Under the pieces are notes generated by a model. The model saw only the letters and a list, made by a program, of their open reading frames with translations. It searched no databases and was not told the DNA's origin. From NCBI GenBank assembly GCA_016929595.1, contig JAFGIN010000101.1:1-64000 (forward strand): DNA of 64,000 nucleotides, read 5' to 3'. Source of the DNA: Chitinispirillaceae bacterium. GTDB taxonomy: Bacteria; Fibrobacterota; Chitinivibrionia; Chitinivibrionales; Chitinispirillaceae. This document shows, in pieces, positions 34,630 to 45,076 of this stretch (positions are counted from its first letter, which is position 1; each line of letters begins with the position of its first letter). Position numbers and translations under genes: made by a program.

Positions 34630-35000
34630 ATTAATCGCGTAATGTGGTATTAAAAAATATTGTTGAATATTTTACATTTTTTCGATACCTTTTCTTCTTA
34701 TTGTACAAGATGCAATATTGCTGAATTTAAACCGGTTAATTGATATTTAAAGATTCATTTTTCAAAAATTAAGGCTGGTATACGATTTAAATCTATTCTC
34801 ATTGGCCTGATTTTTGGATGTTAATGATTCATGCAAAGTTAATTTAACCAAAGGCAATTACATGTAATGTTCATCGAAACTCATTGTTGTTTTTAGAATG
34901 ATAGCTTTACCAGAATAATATAAACGACTGAAACATCAGCAAATCCGCATCTCACCATTTGTCTTAAGATATTTAACTTTATTAGTAAAGGATTTTGGCA
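34630..35000. other. AT-rich intergenic region upstream of the synthetase
   Basis: Very AT-rich, no gene seen. It must contain the promoter for the following giant gene; no clear consensus recognised. Confidence 0.45.
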
Positions 35001-38000
35001 ATGGAATCCCGATTTACAGCTTCTGATTTATCTAAAATTCCTCCGAGTCCCGGCGCTATTATTGATGATATTGTAATACCGGATGATCTGGTCAAAAAGT
35101 TAGAGAACATCGAGTTAACCTCTGATATTCCGATTCAGGTAAAACTGATCTCAACGTTGGTATCTCTCCTGTACAGGTATCAGGAGGAGGATGAAACTGA
35201 GATTAATGTCTCGCTATCTGGTACTTCAACGGATCATCCGGAACCTGTTGAACTTACGCTTACTGTAAATGAAAAAACAATTATAACTGAATTGTTTACT
35301 GAAATTAAAGAAATGATGGAAAGTAATCTCTCTTGGAAAAACTGGTTCGAATCGCAACCGATGAACTCATTTATCTGTTCGAATCTGTCCAGTTACGAAA
35401 GTACAGTAAAAATCTCGCTTTTATTTGAGATGTCACTTAAAGGAAGCCTGGTAATCAGCGCGCAGTTTCTGACAAACAGTTATGACATTGCGCTAAAGTG
35501 GGGCCAGCATTTTCAGATAATTACAGAGGGAATACTAAATGACAGAAACATTCCGGTAGGTAAGCTGCCGATACTATCCGATGAAGAAATAAGAATGATT
35601 CGGGAGTTAAGCACAACACTCATAGATACTGAGATTTCCAAACCTGAGTGTTTGCAGGTACTTTTTAAAAATACTGTAGATAAATATTCTGAACAACCAG
35701 CATTACGTTGCAGAGAAATCGAGACTAGTTACAGAGCTTTTAATGAAAAAGCTGACAGTTTGGCCTTTTACCTGCAGTTGAGAAATGTAAATCGGGGAGA
35801 TCATATTGCGATTCTGTTACCACGATCGGAAGAAATTTTCATCGCTATTATGGCTGTTCTGAAAGCTGGAGCAGCATACGTTCCCATAGATCCAAGGTCG
35901 CCGGAAGATCGTATAAAATTTATACTGAGTGACTCGCACTCTGTATTACTTATAACAGATTCAGCTTTGTACAAACAGAATAATATAACAATAGACAATC
36001 TTCTGATAGATGAGTTTGACCGGATATTCAGTACATATAAGTGTATTGGTCCTTCACAATGTGGTGCTACTCCCGATGATACCGCGTATATAATTTACAC
36101 ATCAGGTACCACTGGAAAACCAAAAGGGGTTGTTATTCCTCATTGTTCAGTATGCAATCTGATTCGGGCTGAACACCATCTTTTTAATGTTAACAGTACC
36201 GATAGGGTTTACCAGGGCTTTTCGGTATCCTTTGATGCATCAGTTGAAGAGATGTGGTTAGCGTGGTTTTCGGGAGCTCTTTTAGTGGCTGCGACAAAAT
36301 CGGAAGCGTTGTCAGGTCCCGATCTGTCAAACTTTCTGCAAAAAGAGAAAATAACTGTTTTTTCGACGGTCCCGACTCAAATAGCAATGATGCATAAGCC
36401 GGTGGATTCAGTCAGAATTCTTATTCTTGGTGGGGAAGAGTGTCATCTTAAGTCTATTGAACCATGGTTGAATGACTCAAGAAATGTGTTCAATACATAT
36501 GGACCTACCGAGACTACAGTGATCGCCACATCCACTTACTGTAAAAAGGATATTAAACCATCTATAGGGAAACCTGTTCCAAATTATGCAATTTTTCTTC
36601 TCGATAAAAATCTCCAGCTTGTTCCTCCTGGTTTACCTGGAGAACTATGCATCGGTGGGCATTGCCTCGCAAGGGAATATTTGAAAAGATCTGAATTAAC
36701 TGCGCAGAAATTTATTCAGTCTCCTTTTACCTTAGGTCATGGCTTTCCCGACAGATTATATCGATCCGGTGATCGTGCCCGATTCAGGAGTGATGGGAAT
36801 ATTGAATTTGGAGGGCGCATTGATAATCAGGTCAAACTACGTGGACAGAGAATTGAACTTGGGGAGATAGAATCATCAATCATAAAAGCAACCAATGCCT
36901 GCCAGGTTGCAGTTGCAGTGGTTACTAACGCGCAGCAGATACAATCACTGGTTGCCTATATTGTTTTACAACCTGATACAGTATTTGATGAAAATGGTGT
37001 AAGAAAAATGTTGCAGAACTTTCTACCATCATATATGATTCCAAATCAATTCCTGCTTTTCAATGAATTACCACAATTACAAAGTGGTAAAGTAGATCGT
37101 AAAAAATTACCATCGCTCTATGATGGAAGATTGTCAATAAGTAAAGACGTTATTGATCCACGTACACCAGCAGAGAGGTTGGTCCTTGATATATGGAAGA
37201 AATACTTTGATAAACAGGATATTTCTGTTACAGATGATTTTTTTGATATTGGTGGACACTCATTACTGGCAGCTACTATTATTTCGGAACTGCGGTCAAT
37301 ACCGGGGTTGCAGGATCTTCCGTTGCAATATATTTATCAGTTCCGGACCGTCGAATCGTTTGCTGCCGATTGTGAAAAGAAGATAAAGAGTACAGAGAGC
37401 ACTTTAAGTCAATCCGGCAGCATCAAAAAAAATGAGCTGAAAACCACATTAAAACGCATTTTCTGCGGTTTCTTTCAGGCAATAGCGCTCTATCCGATCT
37501 TTCTTCTTTTTTCTACACCACTGCTTATTCCATTTATTTTTGACTGGTGCAATCCAGATGTAGATTTAGGTGTATGGCTTCTGACATCATGCAGTGCAAT
37601 GATTGCATTATTCCCCGCTGTTATTGTAGTGTCGATTGCATCTAAGTGGATTATTATCGGGAAATTTAAAGCCGGAACATATCCGTTATGGGGATTGTAT
37701 TATCTGAGATTCTGGTTTGTATGCAGGGTATTGGATCTGGTGCCGGTGCGTTTGATGCGTGGTACCCCAATTCTTTGCTGGTATTACAGACTATTAGGGG
37801 CGCGCATAGGAAAAAATGTACATCTGGGAACAGATCGGCTTCGGGTATCTGATATGATTTCCATTGGTGATAACAGCAGTATAAATGCTGATGTACATTG
37901 TATGGCATACACTGTTTCAGATGGAATGCTCCATATAGCTCCAATACAGATTGGAAACTTTTGCACTATCGGGACGCGCTCAGTAGTAAGTGAAGATACA

Positions 38001-39566
38001 AAAATGGAAGATAATTCTGAGCTTGGCGAATTATCATTATTACCTTCAGGTACTACAGTTTTAAAAAATGAGTACTGGGAAGGTTCTCCGGCTAAATTAA
38101 AAACGAAGCAATCTGTTATCATTGAGCCTGAAAATTACTTTGAAAGAAAAGTTCCTTTCTTTTACAATGTCGCATTCTTCTCTGCATTTATTTTCGTGAT
38201 ACTGGTACCATTGGTATTGCTTGTTCCATGGATAACTGCTGCATTTGAATTATATGTAAATTACGGTTTACTATACACATTACCATTTACAGTACTGATG
38301 GCAGCATTTTATACTGTTTCTTATTGTCTAACGATAGTTGTGATAAAAAAAATAGTTGATCCTCCAAATAAAAAATCCGAACAGTATCCAATTTACAGCT
38401 ATGATTACATAAGAAAGTGGATAGTTGACACATTAGTTCAACTAAGTTTAACTACAGTACAACCGATATATGCAACAATTTTTCTTCCTCCATGGTTACG
38501 TCTTCTCGGCGCAAAAATCGGAAAATTGACAGAAATTTCAACGGTTGACCATATTTCTGCAGATTTATTGACCATTGATGATGGTAGTTTTATCGCTGAT
38601 TCAGCCAGTGTTGGTCCCGCTGTAGTCAAAAATGGTGTTATGCATGTAGGAAAAACATCCGTTGGTAAAAAATCATTTGTTGGAAACAGTGCATTAGTTC
38701 CAATTGGTGTGACCATTGGTGATAATTGTCTTATTGGTGTACTTTCCAAACCGCCTCTTGAATGTGGATACTCCATAATTCACAATTCAGACTGGCTGGG
38801 TTCCCCTCCGATAAGTCTGCCAAAAAGACAGCAAAATCAGAACTTCGCTAATCACCAGACATTTAATCCCCCTCGTCATATGATTTTTTTGCGTGGTTTT
38901 TTTGAGTTTTTCAAAATTACACTTCCTCCGGCATTGACTAGTTGTTGTTTTATTTTTTCATACTGGTTTCTGTCCGAAATATTAGGACCGGTTGCGACAT
39001 TGAAATCATACATACTGCTTTGTCCTGTTGTCATATTTGCGGGTACTCTGGTAATTTCCACGATGACAATACTTTCCAAGTGGCTTCTTGTTGGCAGGTA
39101 TCGGCAGAATCAAAAACCATTATGGTGCACATTTATCTGGCGAAACGAATTTATCAATTCATTGTGTGAAAATCTTGTTTTCCCGCTACTTTTACAAATG
39201 ATACAAGGAACTCCCTTTCTGCCGTGGTTTTTCAGATGTCTGGGATCCAGAATTGGTAAAAATGTTTATATGGATACAACAGAAATAACCGAATTCGATT
39301 TAGTAAGAATAGATGATAATGCATCACTGAATTACGGCTGCACGATACAGACACATCTGTTTGAAGACAGAGTAATGAAAATGTCAAGTTTGCATATTGG
39401 CAGAAACTCAACTGTTGGTCCAATGTCCGTGGTCCTGTATGACTCTACATTGAAACAGGGTGCAGAACTTGATGGACTCTCTTTGTTAATGAAGGGTGAG
39501 ACACTACCTTCCTCTTCATCGTGGTTTGGAATTCCGGCACGTTCAAAATCTACTGCGGTAAATTAA
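35001..39566 (+). CDS. Membrane-bound NRPS-like synthetase with poly-lysine-synthetase (Pls) architecture
   Basis: Residues about 1-200 are a degenerate condensation-like remnant. An adenylation domain follows (YIIYTSGTTGKPKGV near 365, NTYGPTETT, GELCIGG, YRSGDRARF, GRIDNQVKLRGQRIELGE, SGKVDRK), then a carrier domain with phosphopantetheine serine in DIGGHSLLAA near 750. The rest alternates membrane helices (about six) with three left-handed beta-helix/acyltransferase-like modules, each starting like RLLGARIGKNVHL (near 930, 1165 and 1415). This is the NRPS terminal-domain family TIGR02353, which includes Streptomyces epsilon-poly-L-lysine synthetase. Aligned to GrsA, the pocket reads DAESIGTVIK, close to the bacitracin lysine code DAESIGSVCK as I recall it. 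It may therefore make a basic homopolymer or short peptide at the inner membrane. ATG 35001 has AAAGGA 8 bases upstream. Confidence 0.88.
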   Translation: MESRFTASDLSKIPPSPGAIIDDIVIPDDLVKKLENIELTSDIPIQVKLISTLVSLLYRYQEEDETEINVSLSGTSTDHPEPVELTLTVNEKTIITELFTEIKEMMESNLSWKNWFESQPMNSFICSNLSSYESTVKISLLFEMSLKGSLVISAQFLTNSYDIALKWGQHFQIITEGILNDRNIPVGKLPILSDEEIRMIRELSTTLIDTEISKPECLQVLFKNTVDKYSEQPALRCREIETSYRAFNEKADSLAFYLQLRNVNRGDHIAILLPRSEEIFIAIMAVLKAGAAYVPIDPRSPEDRIKFILSDSHSVLLITDSALYKQNNITIDNLLIDEFDRIFSTYKCIGPSQCGATPDDTAYIIYTSGTTGKPKGVVIPHCSVCNLIRAEHHLFNVNSTDRVYQGFSVSFDASVEEMWLAWFSGALLVAATKSEALSGPDLSNFLQKEKITVFSTVPTQIAMMHKPVDSVRILILGGEECHLKSIEPWLNDSRNVFNTYGPTETTVIATSTYCKKDIKPSIGKPVPNYAIFLLDKNLQLVPPGLPGELCIGGHCLAREYLKRSELTAQKFIQSPFTLGHGFPDRLYRSGDRARFRSDGNIEFGGRIDNQVKLRGQRIELGEIESSIIKATNACQVAVAVVTNAQQIQSLVAYIVLQPDTVFDENGVRKMLQNFLPSYMIPNQFLLFNELPQLQSGKVDRKKLPSLYDGRLSISKDVIDPRTPAERLVLDIWKKYFDKQDISVTDDFFDIGGHSLLAATIISELRSIPGLQDLPLQYIYQFRTVESFAADCEKKIKSTESTLSQSGSIKKNELKTTLKRIFCGFFQAIALYPIFLLFSTPLLIPFIFDWCNPDVDLGVWLLTSCSAMIALFPAVIVVSIASKWIIIGKFKAGTYPLWGLYYLRFWFVCRVLDLVPVRLMRGTPILCWYYRLLGARIGKNVHLGTDRLRVSDMISIGDNSSINADVHCMAYTVSDGMLHIAPIQIGNFCTIGTRSVVSEDTKMEDNSELGELSLLPSGTTVLKNEYWEGSPAKLKTKQSVIIEPENYFERKVPFFYNVAFFSAFIFVILVPLVLLVPWITAAFELYVNYGLLYTLPFTVLMAAFYTVSYCLTIVVIKKIVDPPNKKSEQYPIYSYDYIRKWIVDTLVQLSLTTVQPIYATIFLPPWLRLLGAKIGKLTEISTVDHISADLLTIDDGSFIADSASVGPAVVKNGVMHVGKTSVGKKSFVGNSALVPIGVTIGDNCLIGVLSKPPLECGYSIIHNSDWLGSPPISLPKRQQNQNFANHQTFNPPRHMIFLRGFFEFFKITLPPALTSCCFIFSYWFLSEILGPVATLKSYILLCPVVIFAGTLVISTMTILSKWLLVGRYRQNQKPLWCTFIWRNEFINSLCENLVFPLLLQMIQGTPFLPWFFRCLGSRIGKNVYMDTTEITEFDLVRIDDNASLNYGCTIQTHLFEDRVMKMSSLHIGRNSTVGPMSVVLYDSTLKQGAELDGLSLLMKGETLPSSSSWFGIPARSKSTAVN

Positions 39567-39657: not shown

Positions 39658-40413
39658 GTGAAAATATTAAAAGTAATTCTTATATGCTTAGGGACGGCTG
39701 TTACAGCAGCTTCTTATGAATGGTTAGCAGATGCCCGAAAAAATGGACTATTTGCACATATGGAAACAGGTATTGAAAGTATGCGTTCGCAACAGTGGAA
39801 CATCAATGGAAAAGTAACTGGTGGAAAATGGTTTAATGAATATTTCAATATTTACATGGGTGTTCAACATTCTTTCAGCAGATCATCAATAGGTTCATTT
39901 TCAGGGTTCCATATTGGTACAGATCTTGTTTTTTATGATTCGGATAAGTTCAATTTGTGTTTTAACCTGGAATCACAGATGGGTTCCTATAAGGCTTTGT
40001 ATTTCTCGCCTGGCGTTGAGGCTGTCTTAAATGTTAACTCATATTCGCCGAGGGGAGTATTTTTATCCTTGAATGAGATATTGAGCAAAAGTGATACATC
40101 ATGGGCCGAAGATGATACTGAGACTGTTGTTATAGAGTCAAAAGCAAAAAAAATCTACACTCTTCTGACTGAGTTGAAAATCGGATACTTCAGGCAGCTA
40201 GTACAAAACCAGTATCTTCAGTTATCTGTAAATCCGCATTTCCGTCACCATGCAGTTCAAGGTGACAAGCGGGTTGATCTGGGTTTTATCGCACTCGGGC
40301 ACAAAATACTTTTAAATAGACATATGAAAGTAGATACAGAATTCAGTGTAGAAATTCCTCAATCAGGCGAGAGAACTACATTAGGATTAAAAATCTCTCT
40401 ATCAACATATTAA
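39658..40413 (+). CDS. Exported, probably outer-membrane beta-barrel protein
   Basis: GTG start with AAGGATG upstream and a signal peptide (KILKVILICLGTAVTAASYEW). The body is made of alternating aromatic/hydrophobic strands (WFNEYFNIYMGVQHSF, FHIGTDLVFYD, KVDTEFSVEIPQ) and ends in LGLKISLSTY, consistent with a 10-12-strand barrel with a C-terminal aromatic residue. No family recognised. It lies 91 bases after the synthetase gene on the same strand and may serve in export of its product; that is inference. Confidence 0.6.
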   Translation: MKILKVILICLGTAVTAASYEWLADARKNGLFAHMETGIESMRSQQWNINGKVTGGKWFNEYFNIYMGVQHSFSRSSIGSFSGFHIGTDLVFYDSDKFNLCFNLESQMGSYKALYFSPGVEAVLNVNSYSPRGVFLSLNEILSKSDTSWAEDDTETVVIESKAKKIYTLLTELKIGYFRQLVQNQYLQLSVNPHFRHHAVQGDKRVDLGFIALGHKILLNRHMKVDTEFSVEIPQSGERTTLGLKISLSTY

Positions 40414-40451: not shown

Positions 40452-41867
40452 ATGTATCACGATTTTAAAATTTCCGGATGTATCACTGCTCTTGCAGGTT
40501 TATTCCTTGCAGTTTTTCCGATCAAAGCACAGAATAATGAATCAATAAACGTAAGCAAATACTTTGGAAAAAAAACAACCAAAAATATCACCATTGAAGA
40601 AACCTGGAATGGATCGCAATGGATGAATTACACAAAAAAAATAATCAGTTATGACCCTGGATCCAATTGTCTGGACGAGGTGAATCAGAAATGGAGCAGG
40701 TCCAGTTGGATAAATGATACAAGAACCCTTACCAGTTATGACAGGTTACTGTTAGAAAACGCAAAAGTAACCTTTAAATGGAAAAAAAAAGGGTGGGAAG
40801 TTATTGAGGGTGTTCGCTTATATGTTGATACTGTAATGAATAATGGCTGCCGGCTTGTACTTCATAACTGCGAATGGGAACCGCAAAAAAAGATCTGGAT
40901 TGCTGAAGACAGTATTTTTTACGATGTTCAGGGTCGAATAAAACGACATGTTTCAAATGATTATGATAGTCCGGAACAGTTAAGAAATGATATCAGTGCT
41001 GTCACCACAAGTGAATATATCTATCAGGGTGATGATATGTGGATGGAAACCAAAATAACAAACCATTCTGACAAAAAGAGAATTGAAAAAGAACTGTTCC
41101 GCTACCGAAAAATAGCCGAAGCACCACTTACCATTTTCATGATTGATTGCTGGGATGAAAGAATTAACCGATGGATACAAAATACTGCCAGATTGTATAG
41201 AAAAAATAAAAATCGATTTTCTGTTTATGACAGTATTGAGGAATCGATTAATGATCAATCTGTTCCTGTATATGTTGAAGACGAGAATCGGGATTTTTCC
41301 GGTAACCTGATATCACAAAGAATCATTGTGAAAAAGTATGATGAAAGTAAAAAAAATTGGAGTGGTACCTATTATAAATGGGAGAGAGTTCCGAGTAACT
41401 CAGAAAATGAATACAACGCGGCAGAGTCAACTTTTACATTGAATGCTTCCGATGGGAACTGGATTTTAACCAGTTATGAAAAAAAACAATGTCGGCATCC
41501 ATTGGCAGGGGGGTATGAGGAGTGTGGTTTTTATGATGAAAATTTAAAAACCTGGGAATACTACCAGACAATTGATACACTTCATTCCAGCGGTATAATT
41601 CTGAGTAAGGAAACCTTTTTTGATCTTAGAAGAAAACAATGGGTTCCATTAACTGACTATTCATATTTCAGGGCAGGAGACAGCATTTCGGTTCTGAAGA
41701 CCTGGTTTGATACCGATAACAATAACTGGTCTAATGATTCCCTTTTTACCATTCGAACTGATGCTTCAGGCGCAGCGATTTCAAGGACCAATCTGGTATG
41801 GAAACAGAGCGGGTTATTTAATGAACGATGGGATAAAGTAAGGAAAATTACCTATACCCGGGAGTAG
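40452..41867 (+). CDS. Exported protein with degenerate W-x-G-S-x-W repeats
   Basis: A signal peptide (ISGCITALAGLFLAVFPIKA) precedes a protein built from loose repeats of the form W-N/D-G-S-x-W-x-N then Y-D: ETWNGSQWMNYTKKIISYD and QKWSRSSWINDTRTLTSYD are the clearest. Similar repeats are common in surface proteins of Bacteroidota-like bacteria. 471 residues, many charged. Third gene after the synthetase (38-base gap to the preceding one), so possibly one transcript. Function unknown. Confidence 0.6.
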   Translation: MYHDFKISGCITALAGLFLAVFPIKAQNNESINVSKYFGKKTTKNITIEETWNGSQWMNYTKKIISYDPGSNCLDEVNQKWSRSSWINDTRTLTSYDRLLLENAKVTFKWKKKGWEVIEGVRLYVDTVMNNGCRLVLHNCEWEPQKKIWIAEDSIFYDVQGRIKRHVSNDYDSPEQLRNDISAVTTSEYIYQGDDMWMETKITNHSDKKRIEKELFRYRKIAEAPLTIFMIDCWDERINRWIQNTARLYRKNKNRFSVYDSIEESINDQSVPVYVEDENRDFSGNLISQRIIVKKYDESKKNWSGTYYKWERVPSNSENEYNAAESTFTLNASDGNWILTSYEKKQCRHPLAGGYEECGFYDENLKTWEYYQTIDTLHSSGIILSKETFFDLRRKQWVPLTDYSYFRAGDSISVLKTWFDTDNNNWSNDSLFTIRTDASGAAISRTNLVWKQSGLFNERWDKVRKITYTRE

Positions 41868-42145: not shown

Positions 42146-42802
42146 TTATTTAGTGTCAACTCCTGTGATAGCCCTTGCAAAATATTTATTGTATTTGTTT
42201 TTAAATGAAAACCCTTTTTTTGAAGATGTAATTTTGCGAAATGAGATCTCTTTTTGTCCATACATGTTTGTATTTACAATAAAACCGTTATCGTTATATC
42301 CCACTATAAGTACAAAATGATCAAGAAACCATCGAGGATGTTTATCTGGATACGTTTTAATTCCGCACAGGACCGGATATCTCAAATCCAGCATCTCTTT
42401 TATCCATGAAACAAACATCTTGATATTCCTGTTGGATGGATTCCAGGTAATGTACCTGACAGAAAGTTGATTAAGTGCAGGATCAATATCATCCATATAT
42501 AGATCTGAATGTTCAGGTTTTCCTGCCTTGTTAATCTCACTTTGAGATATATGGTGTCCATAGAATGTCATTGCCATCTGGATACACGCTTCAGCACACC
42601 ATCCGACTCTTCTATCAGGTCGCGTACTATCCCATTCCCGGTCCGGAATATTTAAATTTATTTCTGTTTTCATCGAAGGAATTGATTGCACCATAGTTAT
42701 CAGTAACACCAGTGAACAAGTATAAAAGATACCGGTTTTAACTTGTCTGCGAATGATCAGGTTACTTCTTTTGGATAAATCAAAAAAATCAAAGTGTTTC
42801 AT
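42146..42802 (-). CDS. C39-like (papain-fold) cysteine peptidase domain protein
   Basis: An N-terminal hydrophobic segment (TGIFYTCSLVLLITMVQS) exports or anchors the protein. The catalytic-type Cys is in VGWCAEACIQMAM, His in LDHFVLIVGYND and Asn in VNTNMYGQ, in the order of peptidase C39-like/BtrH-type papain folds. It is not next to an ABC exporter or double-glycine peptide, so bacteriocin maturation is not implied. 218 residues; weak ribosome site. Substrate unknown. Confidence 0.7.
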   Translation of the reverse strand: MKHFDFFDLSKRSNLIIRRQVKTGIFYTCSLVLLITMVQSIPSMKTEINLNIPDREWDSTRPDRRVGWCAEACIQMAMTFYGHHISQSEINKAGKPEHSDLYMDDIDPALNQLSVRYITWNPSNRNIKMFVSWIKEMLDLRYPVLCGIKTYPDKHPRWFLDHFVLIVGYNDNGFIVNTNMYGQKEISFRKITSSKKGFSFKNKYNKYFARAITGVDTK

Positions 42803-43069: not shown

Positions 43070-43879
43070 ATGGATCAAGGTAAAATATTTTTTGCATTTG
43101 GATTAACGCTGTTTGCCGGCCTGTCCACAGGAATAGGTAGTGCTCTTGGTTTTTTTTCAAAGGGGTTTAATCCGCGTTTTCTGTCCGGTTCTTTAGGATT
43201 TTCGGCTGGAGTTATGATTTATGTCTCTCTTATAGAGATATTTGTGAAAGCGAAAAATTCATTGACAGTACACCTCGGTGCTGCTAACGGCTATCGAGTT
43301 ACGGTAGTGGCGTTTTTTGCAGGTATTGCTTTCATTGCTCTTATTGATAAACTTATTCCGTCATTTGAAAATCCACATGAAATAAGTCATCTTAAGAAAA
43401 ACAAAGATAAACCAGATGTTTCCGATCGCAAGTTGATGCGAATGGGGTTGTTCTCTGCGCTGGCAATTGGCATTCATAATTTTCCTGAGGGATTGGCAAC
43501 ATTTATGGCTGCTCTTACTGATCCAACTCTGGGAATCAGTATTGCAGTTGCAATCGCGATACATAACATACCTGAGGGGGTTGCGGTTTCGGTCCCGATC
43601 TATTATGCCACTAAAAGCAGAAGTAAAGCATTCTGGTATTCATTTGCATCTGGTATCGCTGAACCTGTGGGTGCTCTTGCAGGTTTCTTTTTGTTAAGAA
43701 CACTGTTCAATGATCTTTTTTTCGGGCTGATTTTTGCTGCAGTCGCCGGTATTATGGTGTATATATCACTTGATGAATTGCTGCCGACTGCAGAAGAATA
43801 CGGTGAACATCATGTCGCTATTGGTGGATTAATAGGAGGCATGATGGTCATGGCGGTGAGTCTGCTGTTATTTAGTTGA
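43070..43879 (+). CDS. zupT: ZIP-family divalent metal importer
   Basis: Eight-helix membrane transporter for zinc and other divalent metals. The two binding motifs HNFPEG (helix 4) and HNIPEG (helix 5) are intact, and a charged cytoplasmic loop lies between helices 3 and 4 (SHLKKNKDKPDVS). 269 residues is typical of ZupT. GGAGG-type site upstream. Its stop overlaps the convergent encapsulin gene by 8 bases. Iron or zinc uptake beside an iron-storing compartment is suggestive only. Confidence 0.94.
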   Translation: MDQGKIFFAFGLTLFAGLSTGIGSALGFFSKGFNPRFLSGSLGFSAGVMIYVSLIEIFVKAKNSLTVHLGAANGYRVTVVAFFAGIAFIALIDKLIPSFENPHEISHLKKNKDKPDVSDRKLMRMGLFSALAIGIHNFPEGLATFMAALTDPTLGISIAVAIAIHNIPEGVAVSVPIYYATKSRSKAFWYSFASGIAEPVGALAGFFLLRTLFNDLFFGLIFAAVAGIMVYISLDELLPTAEEYGEHHVAIGGLIGGMMVMAVSLLLFS

Positions 43880-44690
43880 ATCCTTCCAGGACACAAACCG
43901 ATCCCGGGGTGTTTATACGTAATGCCAATGTCTCAGAAAGTGTAAAAATGTAATCTCTTGCCGATGGCCCCTCAAAACCAGCCATAAGATCCTGACCAAG
44001 AACAATTGACACGTACTCTGCTCCACCTGTAATAATCACTCCACCGGAAACAATTGCAGCTGATTTTATTATTCCACCGGTTATTACTTTTTTAAGATGA
44101 TCTATTTCAAGAATGTCTGTATCGGGATATCGCCGCTGTAGCTTATTGTAGAGCGAAACCGATAAGCCGAGACTGTATGGTCCATGGAATCCACCATTGT
44201 CAAGGATCTCTATTGCCTGTAATATCGATTCAACTGAGTCGCCGGGTTTATTCCAGGGTGATAGTTTTATTCTCCTGGTATCAGGGTGAGTGAGCAAGCC
44301 GTTTATACCTGATGCAGCAGCTCCATAAAAAAGCAGTTTATCTTCTAGTGAGGTAATTTTCAACAGGCAGGAGACCAGATCCTCAAAGTTGGGTTTTAAA
44401 CCGGCATTTCTGGATACTTCGATATTTCTTCCCGAAATAGAAAAAAGCTCACATAACTGTACAAGTGGTAATTCATGTGATAAGGACAGTGTCGCATCTC
44501 CTTCAGGGAACTCTATCTGCCGCTCATTACCAGGGACAAATTGAAGTCCTAACCCTGCGGGGCCCTCAGTAAAAATTAGTTTTCTCGCGCTCAGCTGGAT
44601 TTCCGCGACTGATTTTACTGTCAGATCGAGTGTGTCCCAGAACTCCTGCTCAAATGGTGCATCACCTCTGTTTAGTAGATCCAATGACAT
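43872..44690 (-). CDS. Encapsulin shell protein (family 1)
   Basis: HK97-fold protein that self-assembles into a protein nanocompartment. Start MSLDLLNRGDAPF, then WDTLDLTVKS, RKLIFTEGPAGLG and the C-terminal half (YIFTLSETLALRINTPGSVCVLEGF) match encapsulins once annotated as linocin/bacteriocin. 272 residues, full length. The preceding gene, 11 bases upstream, encodes a ferritin-like cargo with a loading peptide, so the compartment very probably stores or oxidises iron. Confidence 0.94.
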   Translation of the reverse strand: MSLDLLNRGDAPFEQEFWDTLDLTVKSVAEIQLSARKLIFTEGPAGLGLQFVPGNERQIEFPEGDATLSLSHELPLVQLCELFSISGRNIEVSRNAGLKPNFEDLVSCLLKITSLEDKLLFYGAAASGINGLLTHPDTRRIKLSPWNKPGDSVESILQAIEILDNGGFHGPYSLGLSVSLYNKLQRRYPDTDILEIDHLKKVITGGIIKSAAIVSGGVIITGGAEYVSIVLGQDLMAGFEGPSARDYIFTLSETLALRINTPGSVCVLEGFN

Positions 44691-44701
44691 TGTTTGTCCT
44701 C

Positions 44702-45076
44702 CTATTCCTGACTTTTTTTAAGGTTCCCAACAGTTGGAATTGCCACAGACGGGTATTCTTTGACCTCACCACTTTGATTCAGTTTTTCCCTCATTTCATC
44801 AACTTCTGAAGCACCTTTCGCCATAAAATCAACCTCCTGTGGTGAGAGAATTTCAATGAGCCGCTGAAACTCCCCTTTGTGAACACGCTCCTCTTCTGCG
44901 ATATCCCTGAGGACTGCCTTTGCAAGTTCGTTTGATGTAGCATCTGCAATTGCAAGATAAATGTGAGTCGCTTCTTCTTCAGCTGCCAGAGAAAGACGTA
45001 AGGCTCTGAGAAGCTCTTCTGGAGTCATTTTATTGCCGGGCGCCATGCCGACGAATGGATTGACAAATTCTGGCAT
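44702..45076 (-). CDS. Encapsulated ferritin-like protein with cargo-loading peptide
   Basis: Helices with LAAEEEATHIYLAI and IAEEERVHKGEFQRLIE carry the Glu/His diiron ligands of encapsulin-associated ferritin-like proteins. The start MPEFVNPFVGMAPGNKMT is typical of this group. After a flexible linker the C-terminus VAIPTVGNLKKSQE matches the TVGSL-type peptide that docks cargo inside the shell. 124 residues. AGGAGG lies upstream of ATG 45076. First gene of the cargo-shell operon; ferroxidase activity is inferred from the family. Confidence 0.93.
   Translation of the reverse strand: MPEFVNPFVGMAPGNKMTPEELLRALRLSLAAEEEATHIYLAIADATSNELAKAVLRDIAEEERVHKGEFQRLIEILSPQEVDFMAKGASEVDEMREKLNQSGEVKEYPSVAIPTVGNLKKSQE

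Follow-up and report, generated by a model that had tools for sequence, protein, structure and literature searches.

A predicted epsilon-poly-L-lysine synthetase with half a condensation domain and a conserved block of neighbouring genes in a Chitinivibrionales bacterium

Introduction

Which amino acid is joined by the synthetase encoded at 35001-39566 of the DNA analysed here, and do the genes that follow it serve the same system? The DNA, hereafter the window, comprises 64,000 nucleotides (contig JAFGIN010000101.1 of assembly GCA_016929595.1, positions 1 to 64,000 of the forward strand) from a Chitinispirillaceae bacterium of the Chitinivibrionales (Fibrobacterota). Among the products of related enzymes, poly-lysine has been described as antibacterial and poly-ornithine as antifungal (PMC10522769). 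It appears not to be known how Gram-negative bacteria transport such a membrane-active cationic polymer and withstand it, and most products of the Pls/PosA synthetase family are likewise unknown. We consider 35001-39566 to encode, with good probability, an epsilon-poly-L-lysine synthetase of this family.

Results

The synthetase belongs to the Pls/PosA family

The open reading frame runs on the + strand from an ATG at 35001 to a stop codon at 39566. Although a TTG occurs two codons earlier, at 34995, we took the ATG as the start because an AAAGGA ribosome-binding site fits it. The protein of 1521 amino acids (aa) and its domains, including those of non-ribosomal peptide synthetase (NRPS) type, are as follows.

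35001..39566, + strand: Pls/PosA-family synthetase, 1521 aa, predicted epsilon-poly-L-lysine synthetase (TIGR02353)
35001..35663, + strand: C-terminal lobe of an NRPS condensation domain plus linker, aa 1-221 (hhalign, AlphaFold, Foldseek)
35664..37116, + strand: adenylation domain, aa 222-705 (Pfam PF00501/PF13193; pocket by alignment)
37182..37367, + strand: carrier (thiolation) domain, aa 728-789 (PF00550, 29.4 bits)
37443..39563, + strand: terminal polymerisation domain, three times a membrane-helix pair plus a left-handed beta-helix (TIGR02353, hexapeptide matches, hydropathy)

The profile of the Pls/PosA family of non-ribosomal peptide synthetases, TIGR02353, matches aa 825-1513 with 617.6 bits (E 2.8e-185, profile positions 2-695 of 695), against a cut-off of 423.1 bits. 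This synthetase is the one protein above that cut-off in the 6.6 Mb genome, and 5 of the 168 Fibrobacterota genomes searched carry such a protein. Pfam places AMP-binding at aa 222-561 and AMP-binding_C at aa 622-697, together with Hexapep matches, and its domain order puts one adenylation domain and one carrier domain, the latter with its phosphopantetheine serine in GGHSLL, before the terminal domain. The terminal-domain profile matches hexapeptide transferases and gamma-carbonic anhydrases at three separate regions (profile positions ~132-227, 378-462 and 588-701), and the three beta-helix modules are therefore real. Hydropathy resolves three clusters of membrane helices (aa ~820-886, ~1057-1115 and ~1338-1356), the fifth helix of the six-helix domain falling under the threshold used. 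A phosphopantetheinyl transferase is present in the genome.

The first-pass annotation, made from the sequence alone, had described adenylation and carrier domains, membrane helices and three beta-helix modules in one polypeptide, and had assigned it to the TIGR02353 family with the Pls layout; both descriptions are borne out. It had also thought the location outside Streptomyces worth remarking. The location stands, but it is no surprise, as the family occurs in many bacterial phyla and in cyanobacteria, archaea, fungi and protists (PMC10522769).

The adenylation and carrier domains do resemble those of ordinary NRPSs, many of which are encoded in this genome, and an ordinary single-module NRPS or a reductase-type NRPS-like enzyme making a small molecule might thus be envisaged. 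The full-length TIGR02353 terminal domain speaks against this, and searches with TIGR02353 and Pfam found no reductase, thioesterase or complete condensation domain in the protein. We regard such an enzyme as highly improbable, and the reductase-type version, which the first-pass annotation had named as the grouping that would overturn its own view, is contradicted by the domain search, the C-terminus being TIGR02353.

The N-terminal region is half of a condensation domain

The ~200 residues before the adenylation domain, which the first-pass annotation missed, are not an ordinary linker but correspond to one half of a condensation domain, its C-terminal lobe. When 15 of these regions were aligned, the alignment matched, in colinear fashion, residues 231-440 of condensation-domain templates from NRPSs encoded in this genome and in its relatives (hhalign E 7.5e-10). 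The match persisted (E 2.8e-7) when, as a control, we left out the linker adjoining the adenylation domain, a stretch that alone could carry a condensation-domain signal, whereas reversed or column-shuffled alignments gave E values of at least 0.33. An AlphaFold model of the region had a pLDDT of 80.9, and its 47 Foldseek matches at E <= 1e-3 were all NRPS condensation, heterocyclization or X-domain structures.

A canonical elongation module carries a complete condensation domain with HHxxxDG, but here only the C-terminal lobe is found: the HHxxxDG lobe is missing from the synthetase, and the DNA upstream shows no open frame for it. The half domain is unable to carry out condensation and probably survives from a condensation-adenylation-thiolation (C-A-T) ancestor as a structural or docking remnant. 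In the published descriptions Pls and PosA consist of three parts and lack a condensation domain, and the literature searched, which included few subscription journals, mentions no remnant of one in the family. Pls proper begins directly with the adenylation domain, a feature that describes the characterised enzymes and is not proven essential; the synthetase of the window does not begin in this way, and we class it as a variant layout on account of the half domain found at aa 1-221.

In a tree of terminal domains the window's enzyme and that of a relative of the same family but another genus (G018) group with Bacteroidota in a clade of 19 rows (SH-aLRT 99), nearly all intact members of which possess the half domain. 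Both Fibrobacterota copies of this kind, and nearly all intact Bacteroidota copies of the clade, have retained it despite strong drift; this and its confidently predicted fold would fit a working role, such as positioning lysine or the carrier or docking a partner, in an enzyme that differs from the three-part Pls. Set against this are the absent catalytic lobe, the low conservation (16-23% identity) and two clade members (L035 and L051) with just 60-72 residues before the adenylation domain, whose short N-termini suggest that the half domain is dispensable. We therefore hold a functional half domain to be possible but rather doubtful, and prefer the remnant. An N-terminal region of ~215 aa was also seen in a Holophagaceae synthetase outside the main clade (L057).

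The substrate pocket is of the lysine type

The ten pocket residues, at aa 412, 413, 416, 455, 475, 477, 499, 507, 508 and 697, read DAESIGTVIK. The first-pass annotation had arrived at the same string by hand, and the reading is exact on an alignment of 80-odd homologues and against the structures 7WEW (Pls adenylation domain, Streptomyces albulus) and 8G95 (PosA, the delta-poly-L-ornithine synthetase of Acinetobacter baumannii). Both acids of a diamino-acid pocket are present, D412 at position 1 and E416 at position 3. Short-query alignment to 7WEW (segments FDASCEEMW, TVVSTVPT, LIVGGE and NTYGPTETTVV) gave DAESIGTVV plus the invariant Lys, so that the two pockets are identical at 8 of the 9 positions read and differ at the ninth by a conservative V to I exchange. 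This is a closer match than the bacitracin code from which a lysine-like pocket had originally been proposed, and the proposal holds. The aligned PosA pocket, DMEHNGTVS, agrees with the published ornithine pocket DMEHNGTVSK (PMC10522769).

Position 2 is Ala in lysine enzymes, Met in ornithine enzymes and Phe in diaminopropionate and diaminobutyrate enzymes, and the M218A exchange in PosA raises lysine use nearly tenfold (PMC10522769). Since position 2 is Ala here, ornithine and diaminobutyrate are less likely than lysine. The first-pass annotation had left the choice at lysine or a similar cationic amino acid; lysine stands and the other two recede, and the assignment of a non-basic amino acid that it had set as its refuter did not occur, the pocket being of basic type. 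L-lysine is the best substrate prediction. The code DAESIGT[VI][VI]K is held by the clade of the window's enzyme and by many other rows from six or more phyla.

The synthetase might instead make a cationic homopolymer of another diamino acid, namely L-ornithine, D-lysine or beta-lysine. Enzymes of the family differ in the diamino acid that they use (PMC10522769), PosA tolerates several, and Ile at position 9 departs from the Val of Pls. However, the ornithine pocket DMEHNGTVSK, the beta-lysine pocket DGESISVVNK and similar pockets in other Fibrobacterota clearly differ from DAESIGTVIK, and the lysine 2,3-aminomutase domain LAM_C has no match in the window's genome, an absence that is not absolute in a 224-contig assembly of 95% completeness. 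We consider another diamino acid unlikely, and reject beta-lysine on the grounds of both pocket and LAM_C.

Pocket types and partner genes agree within Fibrobacterota

Three pocket types occur within this one phylum. In addition to the lysine type, one genome (G002) has the ornithine-like pocket DMEHNGSVTK, and two others (G033 and G019) have DGES[IV]SVVNK, the epsilon-poly-beta-lysine code, exact in G033 and one position off in G019. In both of these a lysine 2,3-aminomutase gene lies directly upstream of the synthetase, identified in G019 by its radical SAM and LAM_C domains in Pfam and in G033 by 63% identity. The loci are as follows.

L112:3258-8424 (G019): candidate epsilon-poly-beta-lysine locus, pocket DGES[IV]SVVNK with upstream lysine 2,3-aminomutase
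L113:8843-14013 (G033): candidate epsilon-poly-beta-lysine locus, with the same pocket type and upstream gene

The partner gene agrees with the pocket type wherever this is checkable in Fibrobacterota. The correspondence between pocket and aminomutase provides an independent check on substrate prediction, which is of value in a family whose products are so little known.

Elsewhere among the homologues, unusual pockets unlike the characterised ones were seen at L088, L098, L064, L067, L053 and L061: DVEANGTGSK in Caulobacterales, DFE[SG]IGTITK in Brasilonema, and DMETNGTITK in Lentisphaerae and one other bacterium. Holophagaceae synthetases end in a fused phosphopantetheinyl transferase domain (PF01648, 54-67 bits), and the fusion enzyme may activate its own carrier domain. 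In Bacteroidota and Verrucomicrobia such a transferase is encoded by a gene of its own, immediately or closely 3' of the synthetase.

L046:8050-8697, L062:6833-7483, L057:6662-7297: fused phosphopantetheinyl transferase domains, Holophagaceae
L030:5851-6534, L037:8098-8781, L039:8067-8789, L043:5836-6456, L044:8435-9151: separate phosphopantetheinyl transferase genes

Elsewhere in the window's genome an open frame of 8715 aa encodes numerous NRPS modules (G000:C182:67831-91773), and contigs C134 and C199 carry further NRPS genes.

Two exported proteins and a peptidase form a conserved block with the synthetase

Three genes for exported proteins follow the synthetase.

39658..40413, + strand: exported 251-aa protein, probable outer-membrane beta-barrel, GTG start
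40452..41867, + strand: exported 471-aa tryptophan-rich repeat protein
42146..42802, - strand: exported C39-like cysteine peptidase, convergent with the cassette (PF13529, 31.6 bits)

The first two are separated from the synthetase and from each other by 91 and 38 bp, respectively, and each is preceded by a plausible ribosome-binding site. The 251-aa protein has a signal-peptide-like N-terminus and ends in Tyr (Trp in the G018 orthologue). It scored z 2.3 for strand alternation, and its orthologue 3.6, compared to 2.1 for a Porin_O_P control and at most 0.7 for non-barrel controls, on a crude, home-made measure that is weak evidence; an AlphaFold model from the two-sequence alignment was uninformative (pLDDT 29). 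From these sequence features the protein is probably an outer-membrane barrel.

In G018, orthologues of the 251-aa and 471-aa proteins (25% and 38% identical, respectively) follow the synthetase in the same order, and an orthologue of the peptidase occupies the same convergent position (60% local identity). The G018 synthetase is split over two contig ends that overlap by ~17 residues, and is therefore one gene cut by the assembly. The proposal of the first-pass annotation that two exported proteins belong to the system holds up in this conserved order.

The three genes could also be unrelated neighbours of the synthetase, kept together only through the close kinship of the two genera: the block is carried by just two genomes of one family, and the barrel candidate is merely 25% identical between them. 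Yet the genes beyond the block differ between the two genomes, and among the 41 genomes searched the 39 other relatives have no orthologue of the peptidase and no full-length orthologue of either exported protein. Profile searches of the 168 phylum genomes likewise found no full-length match to the two proteins beyond the window and G018, the remaining matches being short and weak. We judge mere neighbourhood a possible but less convincing explanation than a block that belongs together. The G+C content of the block is 0.35-0.39, compared to 0.40-0.45 in its flanks, which is weakly compatible with transfer.

Strand-rich exported proteins also occur after the synthetase region at L030, L039 and L060, and in the Oligoflexia locus L101 a Porin_O_P protein begins 5 bp after the synthetase. 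Profile comparisons found no homology of the 251-aa protein to the exported proteins beside the Pls genes of L030, L039, L060, L101, L113 and L112, nor of the 471-aa protein to the repeat protein adjoining the G033 synthetase. Shared descent of these partners is rejected, leaving analogy only. The literature searched contained no report of an outer-membrane partner for the Pls/PosA family.

A further observation concerns 43872-45076 (- strand), a Family 1 encapsulin shell gene adjoining a small ferritin-like (rubrerythrin-type) gene; the pair is probably an iron-storing nanocompartment.

Discussion

Family membership, the pocket, the half condensation domain and the conservation of the gene block are established here computationally. 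By analogy with the characterised enzymes, the adenylation domain would activate L-lysine with ATP and load it onto the carrier domain, and the membrane-embedded terminal domain would join the lysines singly, side-chain amine to carboxyl, at the inner membrane, to yield a cationic isopeptide polymer. The terminal domain might then release the polymer through the inner membrane, and the two exported proteins may help its passage or tolerance at the outer membrane, a putative role in export. The purposes put forward in the first-pass annotation, surface charge, defence or killing, are conjectural. A more elaborate proposal, that the clade has a dedicated outer-membrane route for poly-lysine, is speculative and in our estimate more doubtful still than a functional half domain: the barrel would act as channel or in self-protection, the repeat protein would carry or display the polymer, the peptidase would trim it or confer self-tolerance, and the half condensation domain would dock or gate.

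Several points weigh against the assignment as an epsilon-poly-L-lysine synthetase with associated genes. Position 9, where the PosA residue makes contact with the side-chain amine, is Ile and not Val as in Pls. The closest synthetases that have been characterised, S. albulus Pls and PosA, belong to other phyla, and neither is reported to have a half condensation domain; the link to the cassette is based on two genera, and the aminomutase absence depends on an incomplete assembly. We know of no assayed enzyme of this clade.

Neither membership of this family nor its occurrence outside Streptomyces is new; what is new, as far as the literature searched shows, is the variant layout together with the conserved block of genes. 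The block of synthetase, probable barrel, repeat protein and peptidase offers concrete genes for the question of polymer export and survival, and the half condensation domain offers a hint of the way in which ordinary NRPS modules gave rise to the Pls layout.

Comparison with known systems

The S. albulus Pls has the same adenylation domain, carrier domain and six-helix, three-beta-helix terminal domain as the window's enzyme and shares its pocket save for position 9, but is described as beginning with the adenylation domain, without the condensation remnant. PosA (PDB 8G95-8G98), whose host A. baumannii is also Gram-negative (PMC10522769), has the same layout and the essential pocket Asp and Glu; it differs in its pocket, DMEHNGTVSK, in its single-gene operon without obvious partner genes, and in that no half condensation domain has been described for it. 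Bacteroidota such as Pedobacter and Hymenobacter encode uncharacterised enzymes of Pls type (L030-L049, L059, L060) that share the half condensation domain and the pocket DAESIG[TS]V[VI]K. Several are directly followed by their own phosphopantetheinyl transferase gene, and their neighbourhoods yielded no orthologue of either exported protein of the window. The epsilon-poly-beta-lysine synthetase of Streptoalloteichus hindustanus (PMC10522769) is of the same family but differs in its pocket, DGESISVVNK, and in its lysine 2,3-aminomutase partner, which has no match in the window's genome; its pocket type occurs in two other Fibrobacterota, adjoining a lysine 2,3-aminomutase.

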